Assembly (NCBI GenBank): GCA_027069135.1
Contig: JALXFE010000515.1
Location: 1 to 38,605, forward strand
DNA length: 38,605 bases
Direction: 5' to 3'
Origin: Thermoanaerobaculia bacterium
GTDB lineage: Bacteria; Acidobacteriota; Thermoanaerobaculia; Multivoradales; JAHZIX01
Each line of letters begins with the position of its first letter. The first letter of the stretch is position 1. The notes under the pieces were generated by a model. The model saw nothing but the letters and a program-made list of their open reading frames with translations, made no database searches and had not been told where the DNA came from. This document shows, piece by piece, positions 7,605-19,328 of the stretch. Both the position numbers and the translations under genes were made by a program.

Positions 7605-7940
7605 ATGCAAGATAGAGATGACAGCTTCGGTGCAAAGGTCATTGACGCCGTAATGGAAGCATTCCGCGATGGTGCGGGCGAAACGAAGATTTCTGCTGAG
7701 GCGGAAAAAGAAATTCGAGCCTATTGGCAGGGCCGATGGGACAAGGTCTGGAAGGATGTCCAGGAGAACTGGGCAAGAAAAGAAAAAGATGTCATCGCAA
7801 AAGTCAAGAAAATGGGGAAACTGGCCGCCGACGAAACGAAGGGACAAGAGGACGGCTCATCCATCGAGTTGAAGGACTTCCTTGCAGCCAAATCGACGGC
7901 AAACAGTTTTGAGAACGGTGACTACTCTCCTTGGTGTTAG
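7605..7940 (+). CDS. Small charged orphan protein ending in SPWC
   Basis: I do not recognise this 111-residue protein. It is highly charged and mostly helical in character, with no signal peptide and no membrane segment. A tryptophan-containing amphipathic stretch at about residues 40-60 (AYWQGRWDKVWKDVQENWAR) is followed by a lysine-rich helix. A polar tail ends in ENGDYSPWC, so Cys is the last residue and Trp the one before it. Translation is well supported: a GAAAGGGGGGG stretch lies three nt upstream of the ATG. Only 29 bp separate it from the membrane kinase gene on the same strand. Position and size fit a signal, a regulator or a modified-peptide precursor for that kinase (inference). 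The base composition is low for this window. Confidence 0.7.
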   Translation: MQDRDDSFGAKVIDAVMEAFRDGAGETKISAEAEKEIRAYWQGRWDKVWKDVQENWARKEKDVIAKVKKMGKLAADETKGQEDGSSIELKDFLAAKSTANSFENGDYSPWC

Positions 7941-7969
7941 ACTATAGCCTGAAAGAGGGATGAGTTAGC

Positions 7970-10612
7970 TTGGAGATTGCGAGACCAACAGAGGCGCCCG
8001 GCGCCGTACGCCTGATTGTCGCCATCGCAGCAATGAAGGTGCTAGTTGGTCTCGCAGCCTCTCCGTGGATCGACCCGGAACAGCTCGGGAGCAACCTAGC
8101 AGGGTATGGGGCTTTTCCTCCTGCGCTCAACTTCCTCTGGGCTGTAGTCTTTGCTGCAGCAGGAGGATTGCTGGTAGTAGGAGGGCGGAGAGATCTTCGG
8201 GCGGTCCTCCTTGGTGGTTTTTTTCTCTGCGTCGCTGCGATGGTTGTGGATCGTCCTTTGGATTGGCTAAAGGCATCCGAGAGTCCTTGGCCTTCCAACC
8301 TTATTGGCGCCTTCCGTTGGCTTCCTGCTAGCGCCCCTATTCCTTTCTTTTTCTGGCGTTTCTTTAGTCTGTTTCCACAGGCCCCAGCTCACCCGTCCAT
8401 GAACAGGCTTCTGAGCCTTGGTATCAGGTTCTCAATTCTGACCGGAACGTTGATGGTCATGCTCAGTGTTCCACTCCTCTTCGACACTTTGGATCCAAAT
8501 TTTGTGGCCCACGGGTTCTTTAGAGAGTTCGACCACCTGACCTCCACTAGGGGTATCCACGACTGCATCTTGGTCTTCTCCGTCATCACAGCAATTGGGG
8601 TAGGTATCTGGCGGTCTCGTCAGGCAGGGATCGAAGAGAGAAGACGCGTTGGCATTCTCGTAGCCGGTCTAGCATTCGGCCTTACTCCTTTTGTCGTCGC
8701 GATCTTCCTTGAATTTCTAGTACCGCCTTTCGGGGACTGGGTGCAGCCGTTCTCGAATCGTCGGCTAATCGGCTATGCAGCCATCTATCCGGCGATGTTC
8801 TCCATCCCTTTCTCCACTGCCTATGCCGTCCTCGTCCAACGCGCCCTGGACGTGCGCCTCATCGCCCGCAAGGCCCTGCAGTATGCCCTGGCTCGCTACA
8901 CAGCGTTGGCCTTCGCGGCGGTGCCTCTGGTGGGGTTGGGAATCTACCTCTACCGACGGCGCTCGGAGAGCCTGGAGCATCTTTTTTCTGGGTCGAGCGC
9001 GATCCTGATGACACTGACCGCGGGTCTCGGGGTCTCGTTGTTCGTCAAACGTCAGGACCTCCTCGATGCCGTGGATCGGAAGTTCTTTCGGGATCAGTAC
9101 GACGCCCGGCAGATCCTGACACCTCTTGTGGAACACATCCGAAACACTTCGGATCGGGCGGAGCTGTCGGATTTGGTCTGCCACGGGATCGATCGGGCAT
9201 TGCACCTGGAAACCATCACTTTGTTGATCGAGGCACCGGAGCGGGGAGAGTTGGTGGATCCGACCAAGCGGCGGCGGCCGCTGATGCTCTCAGGGCCGTT
9301 GGTGTCTCTCGTTGCGGCGAGCCGAGAACCCCTCGACATCGACCTCGAAAAGCGCCCTCGGGAGCTTCCCCACCTCTCGAGCTCAGATCGGGATTGGCTC
9401 ATCGATGGAGAGTTCCATCTGCTGGTCCCCATCGTCTCTTTCGGCGGAGACCTCTTGGGAATCATCGCCATAGGGGAGAAGAAAAGCGGCCTCCCCATCC
9501 TCAAGGAGGACCGGCAGCTGCTGGCCGCCACCGCCAACTCGGCGGCCTTAGCCCTCGAGGTCCAACGATTGCGCCGACAGGGGGTAGGAGATTCATCCTC
9601 GACGGACACCCCGGCGCCGTCCCTGCCCACCGCGAACCCGGCCCAGGAATGCTTCGGCTGTGGGCGCCTATATCTACCCCACAATCAGAGTTGCCCGACC
9701 TGCGAGCGGGAGTTGGAGCCCGCCCTCGTCCCCTACGTGATGCCCGGTCGTTTCCGCTTCGAGCGACGCCTGGGGGCTGGAGGAATGGGAGTCGTCTACA
9801 AAGCGGTAGATCTCTCCCTGAGTCGCCCGGTCGCCATCAAGACCATGCGCCGGGTCTCGGTGGATGATGCCCTGAGGCTACGCCGGGAAGCCCGGGCCGC
9901 CGCAGCGGTCGTGCACCCGAATCTAGCCTTCATCCATCTCGTCGAAAGTTGGCAGGGCAACCCCATGATCGTTATGGAATTCCTGGAAAAGGGCACCCTC
10001 AGTGACCGCCTGCTCCAGGAAGTTCTGAGCCCCAAAGAGACCCTCGCTCTGGGCGTTGCCATGACCAGCGCTTTGGAAAAGTTGCACAGTGCCAACATCC
10101 TCCACCGGGATTTGAAACCCAGCAACATCGGCTACAGTCTCGACGGAAGCCCCAAGCTCATGGATTTCGGGATTGCTCGCCTCCAATTCGACCAGCGGCG
10201 CGAAGCTGCCGTCCTGACCGACGGTCCCACCGCCGTGCCGGGTTTGGAGTCCATGGGCTGGGCTCAGATGGCGACTCCCGCGACGGCTTCGAAACAATTG
10301 GTGGGAACTCTCCACTATCTTTCCCCGGAAGCCGTACAGGGCCTGCCGCCGGACCCCACCTTCGACCTTTGGAGCCTGACCGCCGTGCTTCATGAGTGCC
10401 TGACCGGCGACCGGGTCTTTCGCGGCACCCTCGGTGAGGTGATGGCGGCCATCGGGAAGGCGGAGATCCCCTCCCTCCACGAACGGCTCCCGAATTGCCC
10501 GACCATGCTCGTGGACTTCTTCTCCCAAGCCCTGCACCTGGAAAGGAGCCGCCGGCCGGCCTCCGCCAGCGAGCTGCGGGAACAACTCGAATTTCTGGAG
10601 AAAAAAATCTAG
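7970..10612 (+). CDS. Polytopic membrane GAF-domain Ser/Thr protein kinase
   Basis: This 880-residue sensor kinase has four parts. Residues 10-360 hold about nine hydrophobic segments (near 11-33, 50-72, 78-95, 122-135, 150-171, 198-214, 227-251, 265-288, 306-328 and 343-360; the fourth is weak). The segment YAVLVQRALDVRLIARK and the following KFFRDQYDAR resemble the junction found in ComP-like and other polytopic sensor kinases. Residues 375-535 are a GAF-like domain. A zinc ribbon follows, with C561, C564, C575 and C578. The kinase at 594-880 has GAGGMG at 602-607, the ATP lysine K624 in VAIK, HRDLKPSN at 712-719 and DFG at 732-734, all intact. The start is TTG at 7970 with AGAGGGA nine nt upstream, and an in-frame TGA precedes it. 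It is probably co-transcribed with the small orphan gene. Its ligand and substrates are unknown. Confidence 0.9.
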   Translation: MEIARPTEAPGAVRLIVAIAAMKVLVGLAASPWIDPEQLGSNLAGYGAFPPALNFLWAVVFAAAGGLLVVGGRRDLRAVLLGGFFLCVAAMVVDRPLDWLKASESPWPSNLIGAFRWLPASAPIPFFFWRFFSLFPQAPAHPSMNRLLSLGIRFSILTGTLMVMLSVPLLFDTLDPNFVAHGFFREFDHLTSTRGIHDCILVFSVITAIGVGIWRSRQAGIEERRRVGILVAGLAFGLTPFVVAIFLEFLVPPFGDWVQPFSNRRLIGYAAIYPAMFSIPFSTAYAVLVQRALDVRLIARKALQYALARYTALAFAAVPLVGLGIYLYRRRSESLEHLFSGSSAILMTLTAGLGVSLFVKRQDLLDAVDRKFFRDQYDARQILTPLVEHIRNTSDRAELSDLVCHGIDRALHLETITLLIEAPERGELVDPTKRRRPLMLSGPLVSLVAASREPLDIDLEKRPRELPHLSSSDRDWLIDGEFHLLVPIVSFGGDLLGIIAIGEKKSGLPILKEDRQLLAATANSAALALEVQRLRRQGVGDSSSTDTPAPSLPTANPAQECFGCGRLYLPHNQSCPTCERELEPALVPYVMPGRFRFERRLGAGGMGVVYKAVDLSLSRPVAIKTMRRVSVDDALRLRREARAAAAVVHPNLAFIHLVESWQGNPMIVMEFLEKGTLSDRLLQEVLSPKETLALGVAMTSALEKLHSANILHRDLKPSNIGYSLDGSPKLMDFGIARLQFDQRREAAVLTDGPTAVPGLESMGWAQMATPATASKQLVGTLHYLSPEAVQGLPPDPTFDLWSLTAVLHECLTGDRVFRGTLGEVMAAIGKAEIPSLHERLPNCPTMLVDFFSQALHLERSRRPASASELREQLEFLEKKI

Positions 10613-11570: not shown

Positions 11571-12467
11571 TTAGAGTTCGGCGGGAGTCCAGGCGAGAAC
11601 CTCAAGGGCCAAAGTCCTTTCTTGGGAGGTCGCCACGTGTACCAGCTTGTAGTTGGCCAAGAAGACGAGCTCGCAGGTGAGGTCTGCGCCTAGAGGGAAA
11701 ACGGGCAGGACGACGTCGAAGCTCCCGGGCACCTCCAGGCTGCGGACCGCCCCGCTGCAGCTACTGGTAATTTCCAGGCTGGGTGAATCCTCCTCCCCGC
11801 GGAGCTGCCAACCGCCAGCTCCTGCCTCATCTCCCGGAACCGTTACCCGCAGTTTCACCGTCCCCGGCACCTCCAAATTGAGCACCTGGATGGAACCCTC
11901 GCCGCGCAACCAGCGACGGCCGAGAACCTGGAGGTCTCCTCCGGGTTCCAAGGCTTGCCAGGCGGCCGAAAACTCAAAGGCGGGAGCCTCCGGGCCCACC
12001 GACGGTACCGAGACCCGTGCTACTTTGTACTCCCAACGGGGCAGCTCCGAGGCTCCGGGGATCTCGAGAGGCCACCGCCGGCCATCGGCTCCGTAAAGCC
12101 CCAGGACCAAATCGTAGTCTCCCGCCCCAAGAGGGGGCCCAAGGGCAGATTGGTAGATCTCGATGTCGTATTGAATCTCGCTTCCGACGGCCCACTCTTG
12201 CGGAAAGGAATGGTCAAAAGTCCTTTCGAGCTTTCCGTCTTCACTGAGGAGATGAAGGAAGACCGAGGGCGTTCCTTCCGCCCCCAAAGGCGAAGAAGGC
12301 CGCCACTTCAAGCCCAGGCTACGCCACTCAGGAAACGGAAGCTCAGCCTGGGCAAGAGCCACTTCGACGGTCGCCACCGGCGGCGGGGGAGGTTCCGGTG
12401 CGGAGCAACCGGACACAAGGACAACGCAGGAGAGGATCCAGCAAGGAGTGGGCGACAAACGACACAT
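11571..12467 (-). CDS. Predicted lipoprotein of unknown function
   Basis: This is a 298-residue protein with a lipoprotein signal: a hydrophobic stretch, then the lipobox VSGC with the lipidated cysteine at position 21, then a proline-rich linker (EPPPPP). The mature part is rich in beta-strand-like sequence with several phrases such as GAGDYDLVLGLYGADG, typical of immunoglobulin-like or beta-sandwich surface domains. I recognise no enzyme motif. The C-terminal half contains two cysteines (in SSCSG and LTCEL) that could form a disulfide in the periplasm. GAAGGA upstream supports the ATG. It is expected to be anchored to the inner or outer membrane. The gene stands alone, preceded by a gap of about 110 bp from the pterin enzyme gene on the same strand. 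Confidence 0.75.
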   Translation of the reverse strand: MCRLSPTPCWILSCVVLVSGCSAPEPPPPPVATVEVALAQAELPFPEWRSLGLKWRPSSPLGAEGTPSVFLHLLSEDGKLERTFDHSFPQEWAVGSEIQYDIEIYQSALGPPLGAGDYDLVLGLYGADGRRWPLEIPGASELPRWEYKVARVSVPSVGPEAPAFEFSAAWQALEPGGDLQVLGRRWLRGEGSIQVLNLEVPGTVKLRVTVPGDEAGAGGWQLRGEEDSPSLEITSSCSGAVRSLEVPGSFDVVLPVFPLGADLTCELVFLANYKLVHVATSQERTLALEVLAWTPAEL

Positions 12468-12577
12468 GGTGAGTCCTTCTTTCTTAAAACTCTAAACGCC
12501 TCTCCGGTCAACGTCAATAGGCGTCGACGAACCCAGCTCTGAGAACGAGGAATTGGCGACCGGAGGCTCGACAGACT

Positions 12578-12970
12578 CTACGCGAGGGAATCGGGATCCC
12601 GCCCCGGTCGATAGGAAGCCGAACAGGTCGGCCCTTCCCAGACCCGGACTCCGACGAAGGGAGCCGCCGGCAACTCTTGAACGAGACGGTCGAAGAACCA
12701 ACGGGCCAGGCGCTCCGTCGTCGGGCTGAGCCGGTCGAAGGGAGGGACGTCGTTGATATGGCGATGATGGAATCTCGCCACCAGGCCTTTGAGCGCCGTT
12801 TCGATCTCGACGAAATCGAAGCCCATTCCTTCCGCGTCCAGCTCCCCCGTCTGAAGCTCCGCTCGGACCCGCCAGGAGTGGCCATGAATGGGCTCCATCT
12901 CTCCTCGGTAGGAGGTCAGATGGTGGGCCGCCTCGAAGCGACTCTCGACGTGCAAAGTGTAAATACTCAT
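12578..12970 (-). CDS. 6-pyruvoyl-tetrahydropterin synthase / QueD family protein without the usual catalytic Cys
   Basis: This 130-residue protein belongs to the COG0720 family, which acts on 7,8-dihydroneopterin triphosphate in the queuosine, biopterin or folate pathways. The zinc histidines are clear: H16 in FEAAHHL, and H29 and H31 in HGHSW. The late glutamate (VWEGPTCSA, E112) is present. In QueD the segment before HGH carries the catalytic cysteine (CxxxHGH). Here it reads GEMEPIHGH, with Met at that position and glutamates beside it. The Asp of the usual DHH-like segment also differs, since the sequence reads FHHRHIND. Loss of Cys with nearby Glu recalls the PTPS-III branch, which can replace dihydroneopterin aldolase (FolB) in folate synthesis. 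I therefore do not call it queD. The start at 12970 is chosen because it begins the first beta strand. Confidence 0.85.
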   Translation of the reverse strand: MSIYTLHVESRFEAAHHLTSYRGEMEPIHGHSWRVRAELQTGELDAEGMGFDFVEIETALKGLVARFHHRHINDVPPFDRLSPTTERLARWFFDRLVQELPAAPFVGVRVWEGPTCSASYRPGRDPDSLA

Positions 12971-13176
12971 GATTGGCCGCGGATCATACCAGGGCACGCT
13001 GGCTAGCCGTCGGAGTCGCCGGTCAAATGAAGTTGCTAGAATCGTAGGCGTTGACGTATCCCTTTTGAAGCCCGTCGTGAACGTCGACGGGAATTAAGAC
13101 ATCTGGTAGTGAATCGAGGGAGGGGTCCTCACCGAGCCCTCGGTCGGCGTTTCAAGATGGAGATGGCAAGGACAGA

Positions 13177-14949
13177 ATGGAATCCCTGATACTCCTGGCA
13201 ATTCTTGGTTTCATGGTGGCGGCCTTCGCCCTTGAGTGGATGCCCATCGACCAGGTGGCCTTGGTTTGCCTGGCGCTCCTCCTGATCTTCGATCTGGTAA
13301 CTCCGGAGGAGGCTATCGCCGGATTCAGCAACCCGGCGGTCATCACTGTCATGATGATGTTCATCGTCAGCGAGGGCCTCGTGCGTAGCGGCGTTATCGC
13401 AACCATGGCCAACCGCCTGGCAAGCTTCGCGGGCACCTCGAAGCGGACGGCCAGCGCCGCTCTCTTGGCCCTCTCGGGATCTCTCTCCGCCTTCATCAAC
13501 AATACGGCGGCGGTCGCGATCTTCATGCCCGTCGCCATCCATCTGGCGAAGCGGTTCAAATTCAGCCCTTCAAAGATCCTCTTACCGCTCTCCTATGTCT
13601 CGATTTTCGGTGGCGCTTGTACCCTGATCGGCACCTCGACCAACCTGCTGGTGGGAGCCATGGCGGCAGAACACGGGGTTCCGGGCATCGGGGTCTTCAC
13701 CTTCGCTCCCATGGGTCTGATTCTCTTCGCCATCGGTCTCCCCTACACGATCTTCCTGGCCCCTCGGATTCTGCCGTCGCGAAGCATCATCTCCAGCCTT
13801 ACCCGGCGCTACCATCTGCACGCCTTTCTCACCGAGCTCAAAGTAACAAGCGCCTCTTCCCTCGTCGGTACGACTGTATTCTCGGAACGGACGAGCGACC
13901 GCTTCCAGCTCAACGTCCTGGAGATTCTTCGCGGCAAGGAGAAAATCTCTCAGAATCTGCGCAATACGGCGATCGCCCCGGGAGATGTGCTCATCGTCCG
14001 GGGCAGCATGGAGGACATTCTAGGCTTCAAGCAACAGTACAACCTTCTGCTGCTGACCGACATCAAGCTCCGGGACAGCGATCTCAACGACGAGAACAAC
14101 ATCTTGGCCGAGGTCCAACTGTATCCAAGGTCGGAGCTCGAGGGTCAGACGCTCAAAGAAGTGAACTTCCGGAGGCGTTTCGGCTGCTTCGTGTTGGCCA
14201 TCAACCGTTCCGGGGAGACGATCCGCGACAAGGTCGCGATGATTCCCCTCAAGCGTTGGGACTCCTTTCTCGTCTTCGGGCCCAGGCCTCGAGTGGAGGC
14301 CCTACGAGAAACCGACCATTTCGTCTCTCTCGAGGAACGGGATCTTCACCTCCACCTGGCGTCCCGGTGGTGGGTCGGTGCCTTGATCGTGCCGTTGGTC
14401 GTCTTGATGGCGGCAACGGGCCTGATGCCGATCTTGAAGGCGTCGATCCTCGGCGCCGTCGCCATGATCGTCACCGGACGCCTGCGCATCCAACAGGCCT
14501 ACAAGAGCATCAACTGGACGGTCATCTTCCTCGTCGCCGCCATCCTTCCCATGGGCACGGCCATGGAGAATACGGGCCTATCCGCCCGCATCGGTGAAGC
14601 GATCGCCCACGTATCCCATAACTTCGCCCCCGTCGTGGCCCTCTCCGTGGTCTATATGGTCACCGCCGTGCTCACGGAATTCATCTCCAACAACAGCACC
14701 GTCGTCCTGATGGTGCCCATTTCTCTGAGTGTCGCCCAGGGTCTCGGCGTCAGCCCCATGCCCCTCCTCATGGCGGTGGCTTTCGCGGGCTCTTCGAGTT
14801 TCCTCACCCCCATGGGTTACAACACCAACGCCATGGTCTTCTCTCCCGGGGGATACCGCTTCGCCGACTACCTACGCCTGGGCTGGCCCCTCAAGGTCGT
14901 ATTCTGGCTCCTGGCCTGCTTGCTGATTCCCGTGATCTGGCCGTTCTGA
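13177..14949 (+). CDS. SLC13-type anion permease with two TrkA-C (RCK_C) domains
   Basis: This is a 590-residue inner-membrane transporter. The N-terminal half has several membrane helices and two conserved family signatures, SAFINNTAAVAIFMPVA and CTLIGTSTNLLVGAMA. The C-terminal half repeats the theme with VLTEFISNNSTVVLMVPIS and SSSFLTPMGYNTNAMVF. This inverted-repeat architecture is that of divalent anion:sodium symporters. Between the halves lie about 170 soluble residues forming two TrkA-C domains (roughly residues 205-290 and 300-380). This is the layout of SLC13/SAC1-like sulfate or dicarboxylate permeases. The substrate could be sulfate, a dicarboxylate or another oxyanion; nothing nearby settles it. 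AAGGACAG lies just upstream of the ATG. It is convergent with udk across a highly structured intergenic region. Confidence 0.9.
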   Translation: MESLILLAILGFMVAAFALEWMPIDQVALVCLALLLIFDLVTPEEAIAGFSNPAVITVMMMFIVSEGLVRSGVIATMANRLASFAGTSKRTASAALLALSGSLSAFINNTAAVAIFMPVAIHLAKRFKFSPSKILLPLSYVSIFGGACTLIGTSTNLLVGAMAAEHGVPGIGVFTFAPMGLILFAIGLPYTIFLAPRILPSRSIISSLTRRYHLHAFLTELKVTSASSLVGTTVFSERTSDRFQLNVLEILRGKEKISQNLRNTAIAPGDVLIVRGSMEDILGFKQQYNLLLLTDIKLRDSDLNDENNILAEVQLYPRSELEGQTLKEVNFRRRFGCFVLAINRSGETIRDKVAMIPLKRWDSFLVFGPRPRVEALRETDHFVSLEERDLHLHLASRWWVGALIVPLVVLMAATGLMPILKASILGAVAMIVTGRLRIQQAYKSINWTVIFLVAAILPMGTAMENTGLSARIGEAIAHVSHNFAPVVALSVVYMVTAVLTEFISNNSTVVLMVPISLSVAQGLGVSPMPLLMAVAFAGSSSFLTPMGYNTNAMVFSPGGYRFADYLRLGWPLKVVFWLLACLLIPVIWPF

Positions 14950-14986
14950 AATCTCGACTCCGGACTCGGACAAGACGTGGCTCGAG

Positions 14987-15022
14987 CTTCCGCCACGGGT
15001 GGCTAGCTGCCCGTGGCGGAAG
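14987..15022. repeat. 13-bp perfect inverted repeat downstream of the permease gene
   Basis: CTTCCGCCACGGG at 14987-14999 and its complement at 15010-15022 enclose a 10-base loop containing the palindrome GCTAGC. It lies 37 nt after the permease stop. There is no T run on either side, so it is not a standard rho-independent terminator. It may be a transcript-end stabiliser or a REP-like element. Confidence 0.8.
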
Positions 15023-15053
15023 TCAGGCGCTAGCGAGAGCGAGGAGTATTCGA

Positions 15054-15120
15054 GCCGAATCAAGGCGGAAAACCGCAGATGATTCTTAGAATCATCGAGG
15101 TTTGACAACGAAGATTCGGC
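15054..15120. repeat. Nested inverted repeats, possible multi-branch structure
   Basis: The outer arms GCCGAATC (15054-15061) and GATTCGGC (15113-15120) enclose two inner hairpins: GCGG-AAAA-CCGC at 15065-15076 and GATGATTC-TTA-GAATCATC at 15078-15096. All stems are perfect. The arrangement would fold as a three-way junction in RNA. No coding sequence is seen here. It may be part of one composite element with its neighbours at 14987-15022 and 15127-15171. Confidence 0.65.
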
Positions 15121-15126
15121 CGGATA

Positions 15127-15147
15127 GAACCGCTCGGAGCGCGGTTC
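15127..15147. repeat. 7-bp hairpin followed by a short T run
   Basis: GAACCGC (15127-15133) pairs with GCGGTTC (15141-15147) around a seven-base loop. On the plus strand it is followed by GACTTTTG. It could act as a weak terminator for transcripts coming from the permease side. Confidence 0.5.
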
Positions 15148-15154
15148 GACTTTT

Positions 15155-15171
15155 GCCACGGGCTGCTAGCC
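15155..15171 (-). repeat. Inverted partial copy of the 14987-15022 element overlapping the udk stop
   Basis: These 17 bases are the reverse complement of 15001-15017 with one mismatch. They cover the udk stop codon at 15166-15168. The same motif thus marks the 3' sides of the two convergent genes, in opposite orientation. Confidence 0.6.
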
Positions 15172-15783
15172 TTGAAGGAGCTGCTCGACGCGAGCGATGA
15201 CCATCGCGAGGGCGACGCGGTTCTCGCCGCCCTCCGGAATGATGACGTCGGCCCACCGCTTGGAAGGCTCGACAAATTCCAGGTGCATGGGCCGAACTGT
15301 CTTCTCATACTGACTCAGGACATCGTCGAGCTTGCGGCCACGATCGGCGATATCCCGGCGCAAGCGCCGGATCAGACGGATATCCGAGTCGGTATCGACA
15401 AAAATCTTGAAATCGAGGAGGTCCCGAAGCTCTGCCTCGACGAAAAGCAGAATCCCCTCCAACAGGATCACCGGCCGGGCTTCGACGGCGTGGGCCTCGG
15501 GAAGGCGTCGGTGGTGGACGAAGTCGTAGACCGGCGATGCGACCTCTTGGCCACTGCGAAGACGACGTACATGGTCGATGAGGAGCTCGTGGTCGATCGC
15601 CGCCGGATGGTCGAAGTTGTGATGACGAGCCTCCTCCGGGCTCGACCAATCGACATCTCGGTAGTAGCTATCCTGGGCGATAAAGGCGATGCGATTGCGC
15701 CCGACGGTATCCAAGATGGCCCGCGCCACCGTGGTCTTGCCGGAGCCGGACCCACCGGCCACGCCCAAAACGACGGGTGTCAT
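15166..15783 (-). CDS. udk: Uridine kinase
   Basis: This enzyme phosphorylates uridine and cytidine with ATP or GTP in pyrimidine salvage, in the cytoplasm. The 205-residue length matches the family. The P-loop is GGSGSGKTT at residues 10-18. Other landmarks are the QDSYYRD segment, NFDHPAAID, the base-binding YDF segment followed by RRLP, the LLEGIL strand, and RLIRRLRRDI with the following D-rGR lid region. The ATG at 15783 directly precedes the first strand. It follows mutM on the same strand with a gap of 133 bp containing a tandem repeat (15847-15888), so it probably also has its own promoter. Its stop lies inside a repeat shared with the 3' region of the convergent permease. Confidence 0.93.
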   Translation of the reverse strand: MTPVVLGVAGGSGSGKTTVARAILDTVGRNRIAFIAQDSYYRDVDWSSPEEARHHNFDHPAAIDHELLIDHVRRLRSGQEVASPVYDFVHHRRLPEAHAVEARPVILLEGILLFVEAELRDLLDFKIFVDTDSDIRLIRRLRRDIADRGRKLDDVLSQYEKTVRPMHLEFVEPSKRWADVIIPEGGENRVALAMVIARVEQLLQG

Positions 15784-15846
15784 GGAAGTCTTCCTTTGCC
15801 TAGTGATGAAGGTCGCGAACCTTCCAGGTTCGTGAAACGTCGCCCA

Positions 15847-15888
15847 AGTATAGCGGCCCGAGTATAGCGGCCCGAGTATAGCGAGCCC
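15847..15888 (-). repeat. Three 14-bp tandem repeats carrying TATACT boxes
   Basis: AGTATAGCGGCCCG occurs twice exactly (15847-15860, 15861-15874) and once with one change (15875-15888). Read toward udk, each copy holds TATACT, a good -10 hexamer, at 14-bp spacing. The block lies about 65 to 105 bp upstream of the udk ATG. It may be a multi-start promoter or simply a slippage repeat. Confidence 0.7.
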
Positions 15889-15916
15889 CTCCGCTCCGAG
15901 GCCACCGGCAGCGAAG

Positions 15917-16741
15917 TCAATGTTGGCAGGCGGGACAGTAGAAAGTGCTGCGGTTGGCCTGGACTATGCGGCGAATCGTAGTCTGGCATCGAGGACAGGA
16001 CTCCCCCTCCCGGCCATACACCCACAGAGAGACCTGAAAATAGCCGGCCTGACCGTCACCATCTGCGAAATCGTTGAGGGTGGTTCCCCCTTCTCGGATG
16101 GCGCCCCCTAGAACCTTCCGCACCTCGCCTGCCAGGAGCTCCCAGCGGCGGCGGCTGATTCGAGCCACGGAACGCTTCGGGTGAATACCGGCTCGAAAAA
16201 GGGCCTCCGCTACGTAAATATTACCCAAGCCGACGACCACTCGGGCATCCATGAGGAAGGTCTTGACCGGCCCCCGCCGCCGCTTGGCCGCATCCTTCAG
16301 CCGCTGCCCGTCGAAGTCTCCCCCCAACGGCTCGACACCCAGATGAGCGAAATGCCGCCCGTCTTCGAGGCCCCGGGTGGGACGGCTGAAGACCATCCCG
16401 AAGCGGCGGGGGTCACGGAATCGAAGCCGCTGACCGGAATCAAGAAAAAAAGCCAGATGCTCATGGGGTTCGGCAACCTCTTCGGCTTCCACGAGCGTCA
16501 AGCGACCCGTCATCCCCAGGTGGACGATGAGCGTCCGGTCACCTTCGAGATCGATGAGGAGGTATTTCGCCCTCCGGCGAAGAGCGAGCACCCGGCGACC
16601 CACGCAATCCCTATCCAGGCGAGCGGCGGAAACCGGCTCCCGAAGCTTGGGGTTGTACACCTCGACCCGCTCGATGCGCTGTCCTGGCAGCCGCGGCACC
16701 AGACTCCGGCGCAGGACTTCGACCTCCGGTAACTCAGGCAT
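15917..16741 (-). CDS. mutM: Formamidopyrimidine-DNA glycosylase
   Basis: This bifunctional glycosylase/AP lyase removes 8-oxoguanine and formamidopyrimidines from DNA. The 274-residue protein has the catalytic N-terminus MPELPEVE (P2 becomes the nucleophile after Met removal, with E3), the conserved lysine K59 in RRAKYLLI, HLGMTGRL, and the H2TH signature around VGLGNIYVAEALFRAGIHP. A C-terminal zinc finger begins CPRC, contains the DNA-contacting arginine in ANRSTFYC and ends CPAC. All catalytic and zinc residues are intact. The start is fixed by the PE requirement. It is divergent from the radical-SAM-like gene and lies upstream of udk on the same strand. Confidence 0.96.
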   Translation of the reverse strand: MPELPEVEVLRRSLVPRLPGQRIERVEVYNPKLREPVSAARLDRDCVGRRVLALRRRAKYLLIDLEGDRTLIVHLGMTGRLTLVEAEEVAEPHEHLAFFLDSGQRLRFRDPRRFGMVFSRPTRGLEDGRHFAHLGVEPLGGDFDGQRLKDAAKRRRGPVKTFLMDARVVVGLGNIYVAEALFRAGIHPKRSVARISRRRWELLAGEVRKVLGGAIREGGTTLNDFADGDGQAGYFQVSLWVYGREGESCPRCQTTIRRIVQANRSTFYCPACQH

Positions 16742-16797
16742 GGCAGGGCATTCTACGCGAGGAGGCGCACTCCCCGGGAGAAGGCGAGGTGGGGGGG

Positions 16798-16826
16798 TTG
16801 ACAGGAATGGAAATGAGGCGTAACTT
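16798..16826 (+). promoter_or_regulatory. Predicted sigma-70-type promoter, possibly giving a leaderless mRNA
   Basis: TTGACA at 16798-16803 is a perfect -35 hexamer. After exactly 17 bp comes TAACTT at 16821-16826, matching the -10 consensus at T1, A2 and T6. The predicted transcript start (about 16832-16834) lies only two to four nt before the ATG at 16836, which has no ribosome site. Confidence 0.5.
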
Positions 16827-16835
16827 AGGCGTAAG

Positions 16836-17876
16836 ATGTTTATTCAAGCCGCACTCCCGCTTCCAGCCCTCGCCCATCCGGCCCCCCAATCGCCGGAGAA
16901 CCGCTCGTCTTCCCCATTCGGACGAGCCCGTGCCCAACCGGCCGCAGCACTCCCCTCGGCGCGGGGGCCGGGGCGGTCGGACCTAGACATCGACTCAGTC
17001 CGCAGCACTTTCGAGGCCGAGTATCTGGAGCTGCGAACCCGCAGCCTCCTGGAGCGAGCCCGGGTTTCCGGTCGCGGCGGCGCCTGGACTCTGGATCCGT
17101 ATCGGGGCTGTGAATGGGAAGATCCTTTCGAGGCTCAGAGATTCGCCCGACGGGCACCCCATCGACACCACCGCCAGGGCTCCCGGCAACGCATCTTCGT
17201 CAAATCGAAGGCTGCAGCGGTCTTGGGGCGTCAGCTTCGCAGTGAGCGATTCCGTGGCCGGTCGATCCTCATCGGTGCTGGAACCGACCCCTACCAGCCG
17301 GCGGAAAAGCATTTCGGGGTGACCCGCTCTATCCTGGAGGAACTTCTCGAATTCCGAGGGCTAAACCTCTCTATCGAAACCCGCTCCCCCCTCATCGCCC
17401 GGGACCTCGACCTCCTCGCCGAACTCGATACCCGCCATACCGTCGAGGTCAGCATCCGGCTGGCGGCCCTTCATCCAGCGCTCCTCGGGAAATTGGAACC
17501 CCGGGCACCCAGCGCAGAGGCACGCCTCAGAACTTTGGGCAAGATCGCCCGGGAAGGACTCTCTTCCCGACTTTCCTGCGACCCCCTCCTACCGGGAATC
17601 AACACCTCGGAGGATCTGCTACGCCCCCTCTTCACCGCCGCCCTCGAGGCCGGCGCTCGAGACGTCACCGGGACACTCTTCTCCTTGCCACCTTCTAGTC
17701 GAAGCTGGTTTTTCCCCTGGCTCGAAAGAGAGTTCCCGAACCAAGCAGGGCAGTACCGACAGCTCTTTGGCTGGCGAGACCACCTCTCGCCGATGCAGCA
17801 CCAGGTCACTCTGGCGCCGTTTCAACAGCTTCGTCTCGAAATGGGATTCCCCCGCCCCTTCCTCGGCCGCGGCTGA
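16836..17876 (+). CDS. SplB/Rv2578c-like radical-SAM homologue lacking two cluster cysteines
   Basis: This 346-residue protein follows the COG1533 (spore photoproduct lyase-like) radical-SAM pattern. DPYRGCE stands where the family has NPYRGC(x)HxCxYC, followed by RIFVKSKAAAVLGRQL, an IGAGTDPYQPAE strand, TRSILEEL, and LEPRAPSAEARLRTL, each in the usual order. The cluster motif is broken: the first Cys is there (RGCEWEDPFEAQRF), but Asp and Glu occupy the second and third Cys positions of CxxxCxxC. The DNA is unambiguous and no other frame restores the cysteines. It should not bind a normal 4Fe-4S/SAM centre and may be a pseudoenzyme. The first 47 residues are low-complexity and Pro/Ala/Arg-rich, but no other usable in-frame start precedes the motif. 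It is convergent with holA. Confidence 0.75.
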   Translation: MFIQAALPLPALAHPAPQSPENRSSSPFGRARAQPAAALPSARGPGRSDLDIDSVRSTFEAEYLELRTRSLLERARVSGRGGAWTLDPYRGCEWEDPFEAQRFARRAPHRHHRQGSRQRIFVKSKAAAVLGRQLRSERFRGRSILIGAGTDPYQPAEKHFGVTRSILEELLEFRGLNLSIETRSPLIARDLDLLAELDTRHTVEVSIRLAALHPALLGKLEPRAPSAEARLRTLGKIAREGLSSRLSCDPLLPGINTSEDLLRPLFTAALEAGARDVTGTLFSLPPSSRSWFFPWLEREFPNQAGQYRQLFGWRDHLSPMQHQVTLAPFQQLRLEMGFPRPFLGRG

Positions 17877-17888
17877 CGCCGGAGCGCC

Positions 17889-19328
17889 TTAACAACCCAC
17901 GAGGCGAAGAATCAACCCCTGAAGGGCTCCGTCAGCGTCGCTGCCTTCGCCCTTCAGAAGAAGCTCTGTCTCCAGCACTCTCCAGGGGAGGCGATTGAGC
18001 TCCGCCTCCGGGAGGCGACTCGCAGCCAGGTAGGCCTTGTGCAAACGAAAGGGATGCATCCCTGCGAGCGGATTCTTCCCCCCGGCCGGAGGAGCCGCGA
18101 GCAGCCCCGGCGCATGGCGCTCTTTGAAACGGGGGTAGCTTCGTTCCCCAGGCGGAATTCTTGCCAATCGCATCATGGCCCGCACCGCGGTCAGGTGACG
18201 GCAAAAGCTGGCCAGCAAGGAAAAGAACGACAAGCGAAGAGCGATGGCGTCACCGCCGCTCGCCAGGTACCTGCGCAGCCGCGACAAAGCCTCCGGAGCC
18301 TTCCCGGCTCCGATGGCGTCGAGAATCTTCCAGACGTCTTCCTCGCCCCGGTCCAGGACCGTCGACTCGATGAGGGCACGATCGATACGGCCGGCGTTGG
18401 CAAGATTGGCCAACTTGCGATATTCCCCGGCGAGCCGAGCCGTCGAGGTCCCGTCTACGGAGGCATCTCCCCACCCTCCCTTTTGTCGGAGGGTTCGACG
18501 AGCCAACTCGTGGAGGGCATCACGGGTAATGGAGGCTCCGGTCTCCTCTTCCATCTGGCGGGCTAGGAGATCTAAGCCCCGCCAACCACCCCGCTTCTCA
18601 CTCGCCACTCCACCCACCGCCACCACGGCCCCTCGCTCAGCCAGGGTTACGACCAAGGGATGATCCTTGGGAGCCGAACGCTCCGCCAGAATCAGGCAAT
18701 GATTCTTGGGCAATCCGCCCTGGACGACCTCCCCGAGGCGTGCCAGATCGCTCTCGGACCAACCTGCGAGCTCTTCTTCCCGGGCCCTGCGAAGTAACTC
18801 GCCCAGCTCGCCCCGCAGAGTCGAAACCTGCTTCTTGGTCAACTTGCGGCTTCGGCCGCCGGATTTCTTCCCTCCCCCGGCGAGGGCCCAATCCGGAAGC
18901 CCGCCCAGAGCCTGCTCGGGGGTGCCGGCCAAGGGATCGACGTCGAAAAGGCGTACGGTTTGGAGCAGGCGGGACGCAGCTCGTCTCTCTCGGCCCGTCA
19001 AGCTTTGGGACTCACCCACTGGAAGGACTTCCCGCACTTCATCGATCAAGGCGGCGGCGGCGGCCCGGTCTGCACAGATCGTGCTGTCGATCACCAAGGT
19101 GACCTTGGCTGGAGTGAAGAGAGAGTAGGTCTGCAGATCTTCGAGAATCGGGCTCAAGCCAGTCGGCCGTCGACGCTCCTCTACCGGCGAGCCGGCGAGC
19201 TTGCCGATACCCTCTGCCAGCTTGCGGGCCGCCGGCTCCGCCAACACCAAATCCCCGTGGATCAAATACACCGGCCGGGGGGGGGCTTCCTCCAGGCCCT
19301 TCAGAAGAAGCTCGATCGGATCGGCCAT
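17889..19328 (-). CDS. holA: Probable DNA polymerase III delta subunit, long form
   Basis: HolA opens the sliding-clamp ring within the clamp loader. The evidence is pattern-level: an N-terminal PVYLIHGDLVLAE strand-loop where HolA has a degenerate P-loop, a second strand AKVTLVIDST, the helical lid segment around LARRTLRQKGGWG and YRKLANLAN, the typical EDVWKILDAIGAGKAPEALSRL segment, and a C-terminal helix ending LLLKGEGSDADGALQGLILRL. At 479 residues it is well over 100 longer than a usual HolA. The extra length lies mainly around residues 105-230 and includes a basic stretch GGGKKSGGRSRKLTKKQ. It lies 19 nt downstream of the LapA-LapB fusion gene on the same strand. Divergence makes the name probable rather than certain. 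Confidence 0.72.
   Translation of the reverse strand: MADPIELLLKGLEEAPPRPVYLIHGDLVLAEPAARKLAEGIGKLAGSPVEERRRPTGLSPILEDLQTYSLFTPAKVTLVIDSTICADRAAAAALIDEVREVLPVGESQSLTGRERRAASRLLQTVRLFDVDPLAGTPEQALGGLPDWALAGGGKKSGGRSRKLTKKQVSTLRGELGELLRRAREEELAGWSESDLARLGEVVQGGLPKNHCLILAERSAPKDHPLVVTLAERGAVVAVGGVASEKRGGWRGLDLLARQMEEETGASITRDALHELARRTLRQKGGWGDASVDGTSTARLAGEYRKLANLANAGRIDRALIESTVLDRGEEDVWKILDAIGAGKAPEALSRLRRYLASGGDAIALRLSFFSLLASFCRHLTAVRAMMRLARIPPGERSYPRFKERHAPGLLAAPPAGGKNPLAGMHPFRLHKAYLAASRLPEAELNRLPWRVLETELLLKGEGSDADGALQGLILRLVGC

Follow-up and report, generated by a model that had tools for sequence, protein, structure and literature searches.

A conserved gene pair of a polytopic membrane Ser/Thr kinase and a small protein with a predicted histone-like fold in Acidobacteriota and Gemmatimonadota

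In ComQXPA quorum sensing, the membrane half of the sensor kinase ComP is variable and spans the membrane with about 10 helices, and the pheromone ComX has a Trp placed 5-10 residues before its C-terminus (PMC4008528). Hanks kinases with a dedicated neighbouring partner are a known kind from the ECF43 sigma factors (PMC13147305). A survey of prokaryotic histones lists 17 categories, and its main text is silent on Acidobacteriota and Gemmatimonadota (PMC11390915). The C-domain of AAA+ proteins has been described as matching half of a histone dimer on superposition and as the likely precursor of histones (PMC1847821). Our literature search for papers joining the histone fold with Hanks-type kinases found none among the papers it covered.

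We analysed a window of 38,605 nucleotides, the whole stretch of contig JALXFE010000515.1 from position 1, in the genome of a Thermoanaerobaculia bacterium (7.17 Mb, 626 contigs, 97% complete). An earlier note made from the letters of this DNA had proposed a ComX/ComP-like signal-sensor pair, in which an orphan small protein ending in Trp-Cys precedes a membrane kinase of the Ser/Thr type. The features of this pair are as follows.

7605..7940, + strand: small protein, 111 aa, with a predicted histone/AAA+ C-domain-like fold and an aromatic-Cys tail (ORF, profiles, model)
7620..7676, + strand: helix 1 of the small protein, residues 6-24, terminating at the conserved Gly23 (model, alignment)
7695..7841, + strand: small-protein helices 31-47 and 49-79 with a hinge between them and the conserved Trp56 and Gly71 (model, alignment)
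7869..7910, + strand: final helix of the small protein, residues 89-102 (model)
7911..7937, + strand: C-terminal tail of the small protein with the SPWC end; Cys111 is invariant in the family alignment, mostly after W/F/Y (alignment)
7970..10612, + strand: membrane Ser/Thr kinase, 880 aa, TTG start (ORF, Pfam)
7970..9037, + strand: polytopic membrane half of the kinase, residues 1-356, with about 10 hydrophobic segments (hydropathy)
9158..9556, + strand: GAF domain of the kinase, residues 397-529 (Pfam)
9641..9728, + strand: zinc ribbon of the kinase, CFGC...CPTC, about residues 558-586 (weak Pfam match)
9755..10567, + strand: Ser/Thr kinase domain, residues 596-866, catalytic motifs intact (Pfam Pkinase, 131 bits)

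The small ORF starts with ATG, encodes the C-terminus ...NGDYSPWC and lies upstream of the kinase ORF on the same strand with a gap of 29 bp. The layout that had been claimed for the pair, with its GAF domain, zinc ribbon (a weak match) and intact Ser/Thr kinase, is present; the kinase motifs GAGGMG, VAIK, HRDLKPSN and DFG can be read by eye, and the Pkinase match stands in place of a histidine kinase domain, of which there is none. The count of about nine membrane segments is also fair, since hydropathy gives 8 peaks in the window kinase and about 10 membrane positions in the family average. The lower GC described for the small gene and the membrane half holds by GC3, which is 0.57 for the small gene and 0.58-0.59 for the membrane half versus 0.74-0.79 for the linker, GAF and kinase. 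Among 19 loci, 17 have a small gene with GC3 below that of the kinase domain, 17 have such a membrane half, and the window is one of the strongest cases. Sequence searches found no relative of the membrane half in Pfam, in plasmids or in the PDB. The immediate neighbours of the pair are an Amidohydro_1 amidohydrolase and an alpha/beta hydrolase, and neither an ECF sigma gene nor a protease adjoins it. In the window genome as a whole 78 matches to the kinase query were obtained, almost every one falling on the kinase domain, and this genome therefore has a very large set of Ser/Thr kinases.

The small protein had been called an orphan, a description that does not survive profile searching, which uncovers a family of about 30 homologues. 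When the small protein was searched as a single sequence against 99 relatives, only weak matches came up, the best of them directly upstream of orthologous kinases, and the family emerged from small ORFs with a common pattern read upstream of the kinase orthologues. Alignments of 8, 12, 15 and then 23 members were made, and two Gly, one Trp and one near-C-terminal Cys are common to them; in the 15-member alignment three residues are the same in every member (Gly23, Gly71 and Cys111, numbered as in the window protein) and a fourth, Trp56, in nearly all. The small ORF is not a chance frame, because about 30 homologues occupy the same position. A profile search at E 1e-4 finds it in 10 of 396 sampled genomes of the phylum, including other classes, and the named contigs that carry it come from Acidobacteriota (Thermoanaerobaculia, Holophagales, strain Mor1 and others) and from records named Gemmatimonadetes. 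One further candidate, G053:C36, was rejected as a partial match within a 335-aa frame. No family in Pfam, PHROGs, PADLOC or NCBIfam covers the small protein, and the window copy has no Pfam domain. In two relatives (L024, 4788-5237; L088, 2826-3275) the small gene, 150 aa in total, extends past the kinase start in a different reading frame, an overlap common to both. Another locus (L023, G007:C23, 5291-11450) has a tandem small-kinase-small-kinase order, which recurs, broken by contig ends, in G015 and G028.

A first contig scan with the kinase sequence alone gave no match. We then collected 82 distinct kinases with a common linker-GAF region, checked each neighbourhood for a small gene and an ECF sigma gene, and placed the kinases in a tree (IQ-TREE quick search, SH-aLRT support only). 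The window kinase falls in a 30-member clade with an SH-aLRT of 100 and a stem length of 0.82. Co-occurrence in related genomes, which the earlier note had proposed looking for, is what this clade displays: 24 loci are small-gene positive by profile, and three profile-negative loci (L136, L140 and, least surely, L152) have a similarly built small neighbour by eye and are counted as probable. One locus is truncated by the end of its contig (L146), and two are without the small gene (L098, L101). None of the 52 kinases outside the clade has a small-gene neighbour in the stretches covered, some of which end near the kinase gene. The small gene and this kinase are thus a conserved pair across two phyla, Acidobacteriota and Gemmatimonadota. 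Two orphan small genes have no nearby kinase (G355:C121, G347:C6), so the partnership is not obligatory.

At L098 the kinase, from genome G008, is missing its first eight membrane segments and keeps the last two, and the small gene was not detected in the whole of that genome. This runs in the direction expected if kinase and small gene belong together, and it is one case only. In the same-genus genome G001 the small gene and the sensor half are both missing. The other clade member without a small gene (L101, G060:C3) is on a long branch and has a divergently placed sigma-like gene beside the kinase.

In support of the earlier note, both the small protein and the membrane half are fast-evolving, with mean identities of 22-32% and 28-32% versus 42-57% for GAF and kinase. 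Specific covariation of the two was looked for and not seen: with GAF and kinase controlled, small-protein divergence against that of the membrane half gives a partial rho of -0.13 to 0.11, and against the cytosolic GAF domain 0.35-0.47, all values being descriptive since the pairs are non-independent. The C-terminal Trp-Cys of the window protein proved to belong to a conserved motif. Across 31 members the residue preceding the tail Cys is W/F/Y in 21 and L/V/I in 6 more, as in the ends SPWC, NWCDF and CPWCK, and some members have a second Cys shortly ahead of it. The window Trp is at position 110 of 111, and the invariant tail residue of the family is the Cys, which lies 0-49 residues from the C-terminus.

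These data bear on the ComX-like reading, by which an aromatic-Cys peptide would be released from the C-terminus of the small protein, modified, exported and sensed by the membrane half of the kinase. We regard this as improbable. It draws on the position of the small gene, immediately ahead of a kinase with about 10 membrane segments, on ComP, which likewise combines about 10 helices and a variable membrane half with a ligand whose Trp is 5-10 residues from the end (PMC4008528), on the conservation of the aromatic-Cys tail, and on the peptidase genes that adjoin several members. Against this, the small protein has no evident signal peptide, as the earlier note had seen, and no adjacent transporter gene; the adjoining amidohydrolase and alpha/beta hydrolase are not the ComQ-like prenyltransferase that the note had also found missing; the tail Cys sits anywhere from 0 to 49 residues before the end; its motif is conserved and not diversified; a folded domain is kept across two phyla; and the small protein does not covary specifically with the membrane half. 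The proposal of a ComX/ComP-like pair therefore stands as to the conserved pairing of small gene and kinase and is not supported as to the secreted peptide, given the lack of an evident signal peptide, the predicted folded domain and the variable Cys position. With no evident signal peptide, a tail Cys at varying distances from the end and divergence that tracks the GAF domain, the best reading is that the small protein is a partner of the kinase rather than its signal.

What kind of partner this may be is suggested by its predicted structure. AlphaFold models were made for the window protein (15 sequences) and for the relative L087 (23 sequences), with mean pLDDT of 86 and 89 and pTM of 0.80 and 0.81, respectively. 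Both consist of helix, short strand, helix, break, long helix, short strand and helix. The family profile against the PDB has the Methanopyrus kandleri histone 1f1e as its top match (E 5e-4, then 1e-4 with 23 sequences), the first motif aligning on the first repeat and the second motif on the second, and below it come FtsH lids and HMfB. Foldseek ranked 1f1e first with the L087 model (probability 1.00, E 0.04, where Foldseek E-values never pass 0.001) and gave no convincing match with the window model. The histone match has VIA Z of 8.0 and 9.0, a score of which middling values arise by chance between helical proteins, and AAA+ lid domains fill most of the following ranks among the families that VIA lists. 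Three members give weak matches to NCBIfam archaea_histone. The small protein is predicted with fair support to have the histone / AAA+ C-domain fold at superfamily level, matched as half of the 1f1e pseudodimer; this assignment rests on the agreement of several moderate signals because no single signal is decisive. Read from secondary-structure strings and alignments, the predicted topology is the unswapped single-chain AAA+ C-domain form, because strands or bridges are assigned within a single chain and both monomer models have a break in the central helix (at residue 48 in one and residues 52-53 in the other).

A histone-like fold raises the reading of a DNA-binding regulator, in which the kinase would phosphorylate the small protein and so change transcription or local DNA packing, as PknS activates EcfK. 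ECF sigma genes stand by the same kinase type in the paralogue of the window genome and at other loci, neighbouring Hanks kinases directly phosphorylate ECF43 sigma factors (PMC13147305), and a minority of small-protein members are strongly basic (pI about 10). We nevertheless hold this to be unlikely. The window protein is acidic, with a net charge of -4 and a pI of 5.0, as are the majority of its close relatives; it reads GSSIELKD where prokaryotic histones carry RKTxxxD (PMC11390915); and its predicted topology is the single-chain C-domain and not the swapped dimer. Since the window protein and most near relatives are acidic, packaging of DNA by the small protein would be unlikely.

Wider modules occur at some loci. 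A second copy in the window genome (G000:C143, about 12091-18260; L092, 92-6261) comprises an ECF sigma gene, a kinase, a small protein, an S8 subtilase with apparent catalytic residues, and a second small protein, and ECF genes are also found beside the kinases of L093, L094, L137 and L225. The idea that the small gene substitutes for the ECF gene was rejected, as ECF-type loci have the small gene downstream of the kinase. In Acidobacteria bacterium Mor1 (L137, CP011806, 2316-8485) an acidic and a basic small histone-like gene flank the ECF sigma gene by the kinase, with a trypsin-like protease downstream. At L124 (G481:C66, 679-6616) a membrane-anchored S8 protease gene is followed by a beta-rich N-terminal domain fused to a histone-like domain, then by the kinase; this is the sole fusion of the small domain that we saw.

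The peptidases suggest a protease adaptor in a conflict or stress module, where the small domain would recruit or restrain a subtilase, trypsin-like or papain-like protease under control of the kinase. Peptidases of three unrelated folds do recur beside the small gene or the kinase. An S8 peptidase is beside the L124 pair and between the two small genes on C143; at L125 (G247) and L144 the order is kinase, small protein and a C39-like papain-fold peptidase, the two peptidases being mutually related; and trypsin-like peptidases with apparent His/Asp/Ser lie beside L136, L137 and L140, the call being Pfam-supported for L137 only and made by motif and mutual similarity for L136 and L140. An exchangeable protease with a small helical adaptor recalls the effector-associated domains (PMC7159879). 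However, a defining trait of these domains is the fusion of copies to both core and effector proteins, and we saw no peptidase fused to the small domain; PADLOC matches are to the generic kinase domain alone; and no protease adjoins the window pair or those of its closest relatives, so that the window copy would have to be a reduced form or act on a protease encoded elsewhere. We think an adaptor of this kind unlikely here.

We put at about an even chance the reading in which kinase and small protein form a signalling pair dedicated to each other, the small protein being a soluble intracellular histone-like partner with an aromatic-Cys tail. In this pair the kinase would read a membrane-borne or GAF-bound cue, with the Ser/Thr kinase as its output. 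The partner, which we take to be a folded soluble protein because of its conservation and predicted fold, would be a free-standing four-helix domain of two helix-strand-helix motifs and a hinge, ending in a short flexible tail in which the Cys of the conserved aromatic-Cys motif may have a role. Its most likely binding site is the cytosolic face of the kinase encoded next to it, and it would either gate this kinase or be its first substrate. The signal would then pass to a lineage-dependent output, probably an ECF sigma factor and/or a protease elsewhere and something unlinked in the window.

The new element is the histone-like partner of a Hanks kinase, as a kinase with a dedicated partner is already a known kind. 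More tentatively, and with the balance of likelihood against it, Acidobacteriota and Gemmatimonadota may have retained a free-standing unswapped histone-like protein with the proposed topology of the histone ancestor, which serves a polytopic membrane Ser/Thr kinase as its dedicated partner, the aromatic-Cys tail of this protein being the working end and sigma factors or proteases the exchangeable outputs, which would make it an undescribed kind of signalling. The pair links bacterial Hanks-kinase signalling to the origin of histones, two fields that rarely meet. The predicted single-chain hinge topology is the stage that Alva et al. put before domain-swapped histones (PMC1847821), and if this topology and the histone-like sequence are true the domain-swapping scenario could be tested on a living protein. 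An uncharacterised clade of membrane kinases also gains a partner gene to assay, and since natural variants bring in a sigma factor or a protease, its output is traceable.

Compared with known systems, the window pair resembles ComQXPA in its small upstream gene, its variable membrane half with about 10 segments, its conserved cytoplasmic half and the aromatic residue near the C-terminus of the small protein. It differs in having a Ser/Thr kinase and no ComQ next door, where ComQXPA has a histidine kinase and an adjacent ComQ, and in that its small protein is a predicted folded protein of 111 aa without an evident export signal. It shares with the ECF43 pairs (EcfP-PknT, EcfK-PknS) a membrane Ser/Thr kinase and a dedicated neighbouring partner gene, but its partner is histone-like and no ECF gene is adjacent, whereas other members of the clade do carry one. 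The M. kandleri double histone 1f1e and HMfA/HMfB are the best sequence-profile and fold match, with the same helix-strand-helix pairs, and many family members have the loop 'RVS' and 'TIxxxDVxxA' patterns of archaeal histones. Unlike 1f1e, HMfA and HMfB, the small protein has a predicted C-domain topology, with one chain of about 100 aa hinged at its centre, and unlike archaeal histones it is bacterial, mostly acidic, extended by an aromatic-Cys tail and adjoined by a kinase gene. With the prokaryotic histones (nucleosomal, alpha3, DUF1931) it would have the fold in common at superfamily level, whereas their DNA-binding residues and positive charge are absent in the window protein; the central helix, uninterrupted in their swapped dimer, is broken in our two models of the monomer. 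The C-domain (lid) of FtsH, Rpt subunits, RuvBL and Lon, which gives the next best structural and sequence matches after the histone, has the same four helices in two helix-strand-helix motifs with a hinge as the models; there the domain has an ATPase domain attached, whereas the small protein is free-standing, its 111 aa being the whole protein.
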